8,282 nucleotides of DNA from Promethearchaeota archaeon (lineage in GTDB: Archaea > Asgardarchaeota > Lokiarchaeia > Sigynarchaeales > SOKP01), in contig JAEOUI010000048.1 of assembly GCA_016839425.1 (NCBI GenBank), forward strand, positions 1 through 8,282, read 5' to 3'. Shown here one piece after another: positions 1 through 8,277 of this stretch. Position numbers and translations under genes: made by a program. A model generated the notes under the pieces. It saw only the letters and a list, made by a program, of their open reading frames with translations. It searched no databases and had not been told where the DNA came from. Within the stretch, counting starts at the first letter, position 1. Each line of letters begins with the position of its first letter.

Positions 1-629
1 AAGGGGATTTGAACTGCATCTCCCAAAACCTTTCCCCTTGCGATCTTCGGTGCCATCTTAACCAATTCTAGAGCTTTCAGCAATGATCTATGGTCGATTT
101 GGGGTAGGATCACATGTCGCTTTGGAATATTTTCTATTTCCTCCTCTTTGGGATGTAATGCACTTAATGTCAAGGCCAAAGACATCCCAGTCGCCAAGGG
201 TACTACGATGGCGTCTTTCACGAGAGGTAATCCAAAGGTCTTGAAAAAATTTCTTGCAAGATAGTTTGAAAGCTCGTACAGTATTGAAGCCCCTGGGGCT
301 TTCGGTTGAGGCGCAGATAAATACCCACTCCTTCCCACGCCGTGACAAAATCCCGCGGAAGTCTTTAGTTGAATTTTAGAAGCAATCCTTGCCTCTCGTT
401 CGCCCACTCTCGAGGCGCTTAAATCCTTGTCCGTATCCATATTCGATAAAATGGTTAAGAAAAACTCGATCTGTTCATCGCTCCACGGCTCTCGCGGAAC
501 TGCCTTTTGTTCGAGCAACACTTTCATTGGACCTAAAAAGTCGTTCAAGATCGTCTGTCCTCGACGAAGCATATTTTCGGGAATCGTCGTGCTTGAGAAT
601 AATTCAATAATTTTACTGAAGTCAACCAT
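1..629 (-). CDS. spcS: SepSecS, O-phosphoseryl-tRNA(Sec):selenocysteinyl-tRNA synthase, N-terminal part (partial)
   Basis: This PLP enzyme converts O-phosphoseryl-tRNA(Sec) to selenocysteinyl-tRNA(Sec) with selenophosphate, the last step of the archaeal/eukaryotic Sec route. The frame is open from ATG at 629 through the window edge: 209 codons, no stop, so the gene is partial. Family blocks are clear: SNMDTDKD (res 62-69), SRVGEREARIAS (73-84), FCHGVGRSGYLSAPQPKAPG (94-113), VVPLATGMSLALTL (142-155) and LPQIDHRSLLKAL (175-187). The GRSG...QPK segment (99-110) corresponds to the loop that recognises the phosphoseryl phosphate (Arg100 and Gln108 here). The PLP lysine lies in the missing C-terminal part. 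Starting at 629 matches the family's N-terminal helical region. No Shine-Dalgarno is visible. tRNA-Sec ends 23 bases upstream on the same strand, which leaves little room for a separate promoter. Identification is firm. Confidence 0.95.
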   Translation of the reverse strand, partial: MVDFSKIIELFSSTTIPENMLRRGQTILNDFLGPMKVLLEQKAVPREPWSDEQIEFFLTILSNMDTDKDLSASRVGEREARIASKIQLKTSAGFCHGVGRSGYLSAPQPKAPGASILYELSNYLARNFFKTFGLPLVKDAIVVPLATGMSLALTLSALHPKEEEIENIPKRHVILPQIDHRSLLKALELVKMAPKIARGKVLGDAVQIP

Positions 630-652
630 AAAGGGCACTCAAATATAGTTAT

Positions 653-775
653 TGGCGGCCCTCGAGGGGATTTTCGATTTTCTGTAAATCAGAGGTTTCT
701 ATCGAACCCCTATCCCTCCGCAGGATAACTGGGTTTGAAGCCCAGCGTCAGAGACCACTCTAACCGTCAAGGGCC
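653..775 (-). tRNA. selC: tRNA-Sec (anticodon UCA), with T-loop intron and encoded CCA
   Basis: Read on the minus strand it folds as an archaeal tRNA-Sec. The acceptor stem has 9 bp (GGCCCTTGA 775-767 with TCGAGGGCC 665-657, one G-U), then discriminator G at 656 and genomic CCA at 655-653. The D stem has 7 bp (GTTAGAG 764-758 / CTCTGAC 753-747, one wobble) with a TGGT loop. The anticodon stem is CTGGG/CCCAG with loop CTTCAAA (740-734), so the anticodon is TCA at 738-736. The variable arm has a 6-bp stem (727-722 / 716-711) with loop GCGGA. The T stem has 4 bp (GGGG 710-707 / CCCC 669-666). The 9+4 acceptor/T geometry, long D stem, long variable arm and G73 are Sec hallmarks and exclude Ser and Leu tRNAs. 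Removing about 30 nt from the T loop gives a 93-nt mature RNA including CCA and a normal 7-nt T loop. This tRNA is serylated, phosphorylated, then acted on by SepSecS, encoded just downstream. Confidence 0.95.
671..700 (-). other. Archaeal-type tRNA intron in the T loop of tRNA-Sec (30 nt)
   Basis: Between GGGG (710-707) and CCCC (669-666) lie 37 nt instead of a 7-nt loop. TTCG (706-703) pairs with CGAA (676-673). On the 3' side a 3-nt bulge AAT (672-670) separates this 4-bp helix from the T stem. On the 5' side the paired run is followed by an unpaired stretch, then a small hairpin TCTG/CAGA (693-690 / 684-681). This is a relaxed bulge-helix-bulge (bulge-helix-loop) of the kind cut by archaeal splicing endonuclease. 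Symmetric cutting after the second bulge base removes 700-671 and gives loop TTCGATT; cutting after the first removes 701-672 and gives TTCGAAT. Both are canonical T loops, with the intron at 59/60 or 58/59. The exact cut is inferred. Confidence 0.83.
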
Positions 776-7206: not shown

Positions 7207-8277
7207 ATGCTTTATCTTGTTATAACAAACAAATCGATTTCTACATCTTTAATGGAAAGCAAGAAGAAAATTCCCGTACACATTGGTTTGTTCGGGCACA
7301 TAGACTCTGGAAAAACCGAATTGGCGTCTTCACTTAGCGAAGTGATCTCTACAGCAGGTATTGACGCACATCCTCAAAGCAAAGAGCGAGGGATCACGAT
7401 AGATCTTGGATTCACAAGCCTCTCATTGGGAAATTACCTTGTTACTCTCGTAGACGGGCCTGGTCACGCCGATTTAATAAAGATCAGCGCATCCTCCGTC
7501 GAGATAATCGATTGTGCCATTATCGTTATTGATATAAACAAGGGACCCCAAGTGCAAACGGGAGAACATATCATCATGATCGAATCGCTTGATATCAAGA
7601 ATTTAATCGTTGTACTCAATAAAACTGATATCTTTAAGGGGGACATTGCCCTGGAGGTCAAAAAAACAAGAGATTTTTTTTCAACAACAACTTTTGGGGT
7701 AGATATACCCATATATCCCGTATCGGCAAAAAAAAAAGAAGGAGTTGAAGTACTAAAAAACGGACTTCTCGAAACTATTAAAAAACTTGAAATCAAAAGA
7801 GAAATCGAAGGAAATTTGGTCATTCCAATCGATCACCATTTTCCAATAAAGGGCATGGGTGCCATCCTGACGGGTACGGTATTAAGCGGAAAATTAAAGG
7901 TAGGTCAGACCATATATGTGCTTCCAATTCAGGAAACTGGGAGGATTAAAAGCATCGAAGTGTTTCATCAAGGAGTCGAGAGCGCCGAAGCAGGAGATAG
8001 AGTAGGAGTAAATGTGAAAAACTTGGATTTAAACAAGGTATATCGGGGGTGTATAATAACTGACAACGAAAAAGCGTTTACTTACACCGATATTATTGAA
8101 GTAAAGGTTAAAAAAAGCGTCCTATTCAAGCCCGAAACCAGGCCTGGAACCCAAGTACATTTAACTATTGGGATGAACTCGGTCGCGGGTAATATCTTCC
8201 CTTATTACGAGGAGCACGGAAAGAAAATACAGTCATCCATTTCAAGCACGAACAAGGAATTTAAAGCGTGTTTATGA
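7207..8277 (+). CDS. selB: SelB, selenocysteine-specific elongation factor (interrupted by in-frame UGA in domain III)
   Basis: SelB is the GTPase that binds Sec-tRNA(Sec) and delivers it to UGA codons. G1 is GHIDSGKT (res 30-37). The Sec-factor switch I is PQSKERGITIDLGF (56-69), typical of archaeal SelB and eukaryotic EFSec. G3 is DGPGH (83-87), G4 NKTD (138-141) and G5 SAK (173-175). Domain II includes FPIKGMGAILTGTV and the AGDRVGVNV barrel strand; domain III starts near VYRGCII. ATG 7207 is supported by GAGG at 7198-7201. The family-like N-terminus instead starts at ATG 7252 (MESKKKIPV), so 15 extra residues are uncertain. The frame hits TGA at 8275-8277 after ACL, in the middle of domain III. 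Archaeal SelBs are usually about 460 residues or more, with a domain IV. Missing sequence past the window, recoding of UGA, or a mutation or assembly error could each explain this. Confidence 0.93.
   Translation: MLYLVITNKSISTSLMESKKKIPVHIGLFGHIDSGKTELASSLSEVISTAGIDAHPQSKERGITIDLGFTSLSLGNYLVTLVDGPGHADLIKISASSVEIIDCAIIVIDINKGPQVQTGEHIIMIESLDIKNLIVVLNKTDIFKGDIALEVKKTRDFFSTTTFGVDIPIYPVSAKKKEGVEVLKNGLLETIKKLEIKREIEGNLVIPIDHHFPIKGMGAILTGTVLSGKLKVGQTIYVLPIQETGRIKSIEVFHQGVESAEAGDRVGVNVKNLDLNKVYRGCIITDNEKAFTYTDIIEVKVKKSVLFKPETRPGTQVHLTIGMNSVAGNIFPYYEEHGKKIQSSISSTNKEFKACL

Follow-up and report, generated by a model that had tools for sequence, protein, structure and literature searches.

A probable T-loop intron in the tRNA-Sec gene of a Lokiarchaeia-type archaeon, with candidate introns at three places among Asgard tRNA-Sec genes

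The stretch of DNA of 8,282 nucleotides analysed here (the window) comes from a Lokiarchaeia-type archaeon and very probably contains a functional tRNA-Sec gene, the transcript of which, as judged from the sequence and its relatives, would carry a 30-nt T-loop intron between positions 59 and 60. On the scale of the phylum, the Asgard tRNA-Sec is probably a hot spot of introns of the bulge-helix-bulge (BHB) type, located in the D arm, in the anticodon loop at 37/38 and in the T loop at 59/60, alone or two together, which would have been gained and lost repeatedly, partly as single introns and partly by swaps of promoter-plus-tRNA cassettes between lineages; in many lineages, the decoding of Sec would then depend on a two-subunit splicing endonuclease of broad specificity, and many of the genes would be missed by the standard RNA models. 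The tRNA-Sec is usually single-copy, and without it the cell makes no selenoproteins; therefore, an intron in it would make the 21st amino acid dependent on RNA splicing. The comparison of relatives gives the exact predicted splice sites and demonstrates how a standard model can overlook a tRNA-Sec, and it provides a natural series of tRNA intron gain and loss in one essential gene of the archaeal group closest to eukaryotes.

Materials and Methods

The SepSecS search of close relatives comprised 34 loci in 33 genomes, and the whole-genome model and pattern searches covered 227 genomes of the same phylum (Asgard), with the loci taken from among the matches listed. From the 97 sequences given to the parser, 90 were parsed and 89 counted; the seven unparsed ones were L001, L151 and L158 (contig ends), L096, L099, L173 and L178. 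The intron sites in the parser were preset after inspection by eye, namely T 59/60 (29-32 nt), anticodon 37/38 (22-30 nt) and, for the D arm, either before the last base of the 5' strand of the D stem (29-34 nt) or in the D loop (L184 only, 28 nt). In the register test, exon bases -6 to -3 were expected to pair with intron bases -6 to -3. The locus L184 (genome G112) stands outside the register and covariation counts; for the tree count, G112 was entered by hand as bearing D and T introns and G001 as bearing a T intron, and G138, whose gene lies partly on one contig and partly on another, the 3' one being without a T intron, is unscored.

Some candidate results were discarded. The 20-nt anticodon intron of L184 in the parser output was rejected as an artefact, with the D-loop and T-loop introns read by eye being kept; the absence of tRNA-Sec in 7 of the 33 genomes was dropped, since an anticodon-loop intron had broken the search pattern in all seven; and a second tRNA-Sec in G001 was rejected, the two hits being overlapping contig ends that were read as one gene.

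Results

The tRNA-Sec gene and its fold

The Rfam tRNA-Sec model RF01852 was matched over its full length (model positions 1-91 of 91) at 775-657 on the minus strand, with a score of 48.1 bits against the gathering cut-off of 47 and an E-value of 1.7e-7 for the window, and this was the sole Rfam match of the window at E <= 1. The gene bounds of Table 1 are correct because G73 is found at 656 and the CCA at 655-653. According to the structural parse, all pairs are formed in the acceptor (9/9), the D stem (7/7), the anticodon stem (6/6) and the T stem (4/4), the anticodon loop being CUUCAAA with the anticodon UCA, and folding gives a variable arm with a 6-bp stem. Thus, the signs of the tRNA-Sec class were found together, i.e., a score above the gathering cut-off, UCA, the 9-bp acceptor, the 4-bp T stem, the 7-bp D stem, the long variable arm and G73, and the description of a complete minus-strand tRNA-Sec in the earlier note, made from the letters of the same DNA, was confirmed by model and parse alike in its acceptor, D stem, UCA, G73 and CCA.

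In the alignment to RF01852, 31 residues of the T loop stand opposite one model position and constitute the sole long insert; the fold to a tRNA-Sec covariance model, which had been proposed as a check, was therefore obtained over the full length with this T-loop insert. The minus strand folds at -55.3 kcal/mol (z -4.1) into a tRNA whose T loop bears a hairpin outgrowth, and 1 of 200 shuffled sequences folded equally well. No tRNA was found by ARAGORN over the window, the tRNA-Sec gene being missed.

Table 1. Features of the window, with coordinates, strand and basis of assignment
Feature	Coordinates	Strand	Basis
tRNA-Sec gene including the intron	653..775	-	RF01852 full-length match, structural parse (A9 D7 C6 T4), coordinates
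UCA anticodon, G73, encoded CCA of tRNA-Sec	G73 656; CCA 655-653	-	parse and coordinates
Exon 1: acceptor 5' strand to T-loop position 59	701..775	-	parse and predicted BHB cut
T-loop intron (predicted), 30 nt, BHB type, positions 59/60	671..700	-	BHB cut; comparison with intronless genes
Exon 2: T-loop position 60, 3' strands of T stem and acceptor, G73, CCA	653..670	-	parse
SepSecS (O-phosphoseryl-tRNA(Sec) selenium transferase), 5' part, cut by the window end	3..638	-	PF05889, E 2.2e-40
SelB/EFSec-like selenocysteine elongation factor, apparently short	7207..8277	+	PF00009, PF03144

The intron and its splice register in the window

The insert is laid out as a BHB motif, in which the T stem GGGG/CCCC is followed by UUCG and AU^A on the one side and by CGAA and AA^U on the other, so that a central helix of 4 bp (UUCG/CGAA) lies between two 3-nt bulges. 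A cut after the second bulge base takes out 30 nt and leaves the loop TTCGATT, with the 123 nt of the unspliced molecule giving a predicted spliced form of 93 nt that contains GGGGUUCGAUUCCCC. All 93 positions of this form agree with the tRNA-Sec of genome G006 (L006), which has no interruption and is the sole exact match to it among the parsed genes; a cut at the bulges would restore a canonical tRNA, and the intron reading is right because it is the BHB cut that yields the 93-mer of an intronless relative. Of the two loops offered by the earlier note, TTCGATT or TTCGAAT, the first is present in 40 of 40 parsed intronless genes, where the parser required GTTCGA, not the last two letters of TTCGATT.

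The inner helix beside the bulges is weak in the window and longer in G001, and the motif of the window is to be called relaxed because no strong inner helix stands next to the bulges; in RNAfold, AU is paired with AU too, which gives a 6-bp helix UUCGAU/AUCGAA and closes the 5' bulge. Of the reading in the earlier note, the following holds: the extra bases, put at about 30, are 30 nt by the BHB cut and 31 residues by Infernal; the relaxed BHB of TTCG/CGAA with the AAT bulge has four of four central pairs, with the predicted cut at 59/60; and the restored 7-nt loop agrees with the intronless genes and the 93-nt tRNA with that of L006. The probability of an exact 4-bp central helix at that register in the shuffled window intron was 0.019, which for a single intron is a chance that is not negligible, and the weight comes from the relatives, many of which are closely related. 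In G001, two overlapping contig ends give exons identical to those of the window, and the introns share 23 of 30 positions.

Introns across Asgard tRNA-Sec genes

Among the matches listed, the 89 counted genes comprised 40 without intron, 22 with D and T introns, 9 with D only, 9 with anticodon and T introns, 5 with T only (the window included) and 4 with anticodon only; these numbers differ from population frequencies, as the set unites the close-relative search, loci among the matches listed and pattern hits, and they are not independent events, because many of the genes come from close relatives (L022 and L075 probably represent a single gene, and L017 and L034 are separate genes of the same genome). 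A further T-only case, G001, was read by hand beyond the 89. The search for the same insertion in related genomes, which the earlier note had also suggested, was successful, with T-loop introns in 36 parsed genes, each from a different genome, the window included; they are 29-32 nt long, 30 nt in 26 of the 36, and lie all at 59/60 partly by construction, because the parser allowed preset sites only.

At the predicted register, four of four central pairs were found in 18 and three in the other 18 of the 36 T introns, with the shuffle expectation of 0.9 for four pairs and 7.6 for at least three. The D introns had four pairs in 27, three in 2 and none in 2 of 31 (expectation for four, 0.8), and the anticodon introns had four pairs in 13 of 13 (expectation, 0.12). 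When the 3' side was slid by 1-4 bases, four pairs were left in 0-5 of 36 T introns, in at most 5 of 31 D introns and in 0 of 13 anticodon introns. Both D introns without pairs at the fixed register belong to G017, in which a shifted helix GGTTA/TAACC was seen by eye.

The exon and the intron sides of the D-intron helix, as compared in the sequences, change together, with GTCG opposite CGAT in 24 of 31 and GTTG opposite CAAT in both G022 sequences. In the T introns, the intron partner of TTCG is AGAA in 14 of 36 (one pair short) and CGAA, as in the window, in 12. The pairs that enclose the intron covary: among the 15 distinct 93-nt mature forms obtained from 33 of the 36 T-intron genes, pair 3 of the T stem is GC in 9 and AT in 6, the acceptor pairs 5-9 vary and stay paired, and pair 4 of the D stem is non-standard in 4 of the 15.

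Several loci are worth recording separately. The chromosome of G017 (CP070831.1) contains two tRNA-Sec genes (L017, L034), both with a D intron and each beside a SepSecS match, the second of which corresponds to query residues 4-90 and a 128-aa open frame. In another Asgard lineage, the tRNA-Sec of L184 shows by eye a D-loop intron (TGG^T) and a T-loop intron; this locus was not reported by the anticodon pattern search of the Asgard genomes. The BHB-signature pattern gave 18 hits over the 227 Asgard genomes, and 8 of them were by eye tRNA genes, 4 tRNA-Sec and 4 other. The other Asgard tRNA-like genes (by eye), L181, L183, L186 and L193, carry T-loop introns ending in CGAAAAUCC, as demanded by the pattern with which they were found; the T-loop site is, therefore, not special to tRNA-Sec.

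Detection by standard tools

The RF01852 cut-off was passed by 10 of the 33 related genomes, all intronless, and by 71 of 227 genomes in the phylum-wide search; a tRNA-Sec gene was found in 33 of 33 related genomes, in 32 by the parser and in G001 by hand. Genes with anticodon introns lie above the cut-off, among the matches listed, in G116, G130 and G162, and together with the window gene they contradict a general invisibility of intron-bearing tRNA-Sec to the Rfam model. With ARAGORN, 3 of 3 intronless loci were found and 0 of 6 other intron-bearing loci, one of which (L066) is also cut by the contig end. Accordingly, the expectation that the window gene is hidden from the tRNA finders stands for ARAGORN, but not for the Rfam model, which finds it just above the cut-off.

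Gain, loss and cassette replacement

On the SepSecS tree of 77 rows, the minimum numbers of changes were 13 for the D, 5 for the anticodon and 15 for the T introns, with rows without a scored tRNA omitted; the counts are rough because the outgroup rows do not group on one side, the tree has several long branches and it was built from a neighbour gene. G003 and G004, which are closely related, share their D intron and all of the 60 nt upstream, the differences being the T intron and one T-stem pair; G126 and G127, with upstream parts 95% alike, are distinguished by the anticodon intron and by a few bases of the exons.

Two introns against none were found in the sister pairs G005/G007, G137/G141 and G006/G010. 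Their downstream similarity is 0.78, 0.90 and 0.95, respectively, and the upstream similarity is 0.65, 0.67 and 0.72, which is the range of unrelated rows in this AT-rich set. For G007 and G141, the upstream parts have a similarity of 0.88-0.92 to those of other intronless genes, and that of G006 had no such close match among the compared intronless genes. These patterns suggest that an intronless cassette may have taken the place of the promoter and the tRNA, through a crossover within the conserved tRNA. It looks, then, as if close relatives differ either by single introns, with a few exon bases, or by a swapped promoter-plus-tRNA cassette.

An intronless tRNA-Sec truncated at the T stem (L008:5654) occurs on the same contig as an intact tRNA-Sec with D and T introns; it may be a relic or, less likely, a 5' half. 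This Lokiarchaeia-type contig is found inside a MAG titled Chlamydiae bacterium SM23_39, probably through a binning error. At L002:987-1000, the 14-nt 5' end of the tRNA-Sec is duplicated just upstream of an intronless gene, which looks like a replacement scar. The truncated copy and the duplicate would both fit gene replacement.

Neighbourhood and host

The likely start of SepSecS, the enzyme making Sec on tRNA-Sec, is an ATG at 629-627, 23 nt downstream of the tRNA-Sec CCA on the same strand, and in 29 of 33 related loci fewer than 60 nt separate the tRNA-Sec from the SepSecS match downstream of it. In the SepSecS tree, the protein of the window groups as sister with that of G001 (Candidatus Lokiarchaeota archaeon isolate Zod_Metabat.1389), at 84% identity and with a support of 100/100; by this placement, the window is assigned to a Lokiarchaeia-type genome. 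No relative was found in the viral contigs searched with the window SepSecS.

At the other end, the best solved relative of the SelB-like open reading frame was SelB 4ac9 (E 1.5e-74). The frame is short for a SelB of that kind because it covers just residues 20-331 of the 482 of 4ac9; it stops at a TGA five bases short of the window end, and a contig-edge error or a real truncation are possible.

Discussion

Splicing machinery and proposed processing

Two proteins of the EndA family (PF01974) were found in 14 of the 15 Asgard genomes searched and one in the other. In G001, the first of them is similar to the splicing endonuclease 3p1z (E 5.5e-35), with the catalytic residues Tyr, His and Lys retained; the closest to the second is 1a79, the His of which is replaced by Ser. 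By these residues, the pair would fit a catalytic and a structural subunit of the (alpha-beta)2 type. RtcB was found in 6 of 8 genomes searched, G129 having a fragment of it and G010 two separate pieces, and was not found in the other two, G001 (the closest relative) and G003, perhaps due to their incompleteness. The (alpha-beta)2 endonuclease of Aeropyrum pernix is described, in the accessible part of PMC12397907, as broad in specificity, which is ascribed to a loop.

The proposed processing is as follows. In the pre-tRNA, the T stem GGGG/CCCC would serve as the outer helix, and UUCG of the T loop would pair with CGAA near the 3' end of the intron to form the 4-bp central helix, with the bulges AU^A and AA^U as the cut sites. 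Both bulges would be cut by a two-subunit (alpha-beta) tRNA splicing endonuclease, and the exons would be joined by an RNA ligase, probably RtcB, into the 93-nt tRNA-Sec, which would then serve SerRS, PSTK, SepSecS and SelB. The tRNA-Sec is probably transcribed together with SepSecS just downstream. We infer the cutting and joining, the co-transcription and the dependence of Sec decoding on splicing from the gene and its relatives.

Weighing of other explanations

The stable fold of the unspliced strand, in which the other tRNA arms are intact, might suggest that the insert is never removed and that the tRNA-Sec works with a permanently enlarged, hairpin-bearing T loop. The T loop, however, is required for the contact between the D loop and the T loop; 40 of the 89 counted genes do without an intron, one of them having exactly the spliced sequence of the window; the insert sequence drifts, with the pairing of its 3' end to the T loop retained above chance; and for the related anticodon-loop introns, with perfect BHB registers in 13 of 13, function without removal is hard to picture. 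A permanent insert is, on these grounds, very unlikely. Still less likely is a decayed window copy with another tRNA-Sec doing the work. Such a reading could invoke the truncated intronless relic beside the intact gene in L008 and the two genes of G017, but the exons of the window are perfect, all stems are paired, the spliced form is that of an intact relative, the removal of the insert restores the tRNA exactly, and the position close upstream of SepSecS is retained in 29 of 33 relatives.

An assembly artefact or a chance insertion in a single metagenome contig is barely conceivable. The contig does break inside the gene in three relatives (G001, G138 and G150), but the same site is filled, at 29-32 nt and in the BHB register, in all 36 parsed T-intron genes, and the insert of the sister G001 is homologous, with 23 of 30 positions identical; for the feature as a whole, the artefact is refuted by the relatives. 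We also give hardly any credence to a mobile or self-splicing element in the T loop: elements often integrate into the T loop or the 3' end of tRNA genes, but 30 nt are too short for a ribozyme or a mobile element, and nothing besides RF01852 was matched in the window by Rfam at E up to 1. Splicing of a BHB intron out of a working tRNA-Sec remains the preferred reading.

Comparison with known systems

The window is not the first sighting, because a T-arm intron in the tRNA-Sec of Lokiarchaeota has already been credited to Mariotti et al. 2016, and the suggestion of the earlier note that none was established for the T loop of tRNA-Sec is not supported. In the accessible text of PMC5330540, the single intron case of tRNA-Sec then reported is that of Lokiarchaeota, in the T arm, with a 7-bp D stem, obtained via Secmarker; PMC9499178, as far as its text is accessible, gives the intron as 31 nt, calls it the only archaeal case and cites the same authors. 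As described there, this intron shares with that of the window the tRNA, the arm, the lineage and the 7-bp D stem, and its 31 nt stand against 30 by the BHB cut and 31 residues by Infernal, the two being compared by description only. 'Unusual insertions and deletions' in the tRNA-Sec of all Sifarchaeia and some Lokiarchaeia are mentioned in PMC9723677, in the available part of which the word intron is absent, and these may be the same introns; nor is the word used in the available part of PMC11227280. The D-arm, anticodon and two-intron forms of archaeal tRNA-Sec were not found in print in the searchable literature, subscription papers and supplements being outside this scope. What seems new within that literature is the occurrence of related Asgard tRNA-Sec introns at three places (D, anticodon and T), alone or paired.

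Among other systems, the tRNA-Sec of Daphnia pulex, as portrayed in the accessible text of PMC5330540, also has an intron; it is, however, eukaryotic, with 25 and 16 nt, in the anticodon loop. Intron-bearing tRNA genes amount to 92-95% in other Asgard lineages according to the part available of PMC11291895, and the tRNAs of Atabeyarchaeia and Freyarchaeia described there are, like the window gene, of Asgard origin, with introns often non-canonical and several per gene; a tRNA-Sec intron is not stated in that part of the account. In architecture, the gene of the window resembles the non-canonical archaeal BHB introns of the D arm and the T arm, as presented in the accessible part of PMC12397907: with them the window shares a site outside the anticodon loop, the 3-nt bulges, the 4-bp central helix and, in its relatives, the two-subunit EndA, and it is unlike them in that its gene is a tRNA-Sec, with the 9/4 acceptor-T fold and a T stem of 4 bp.
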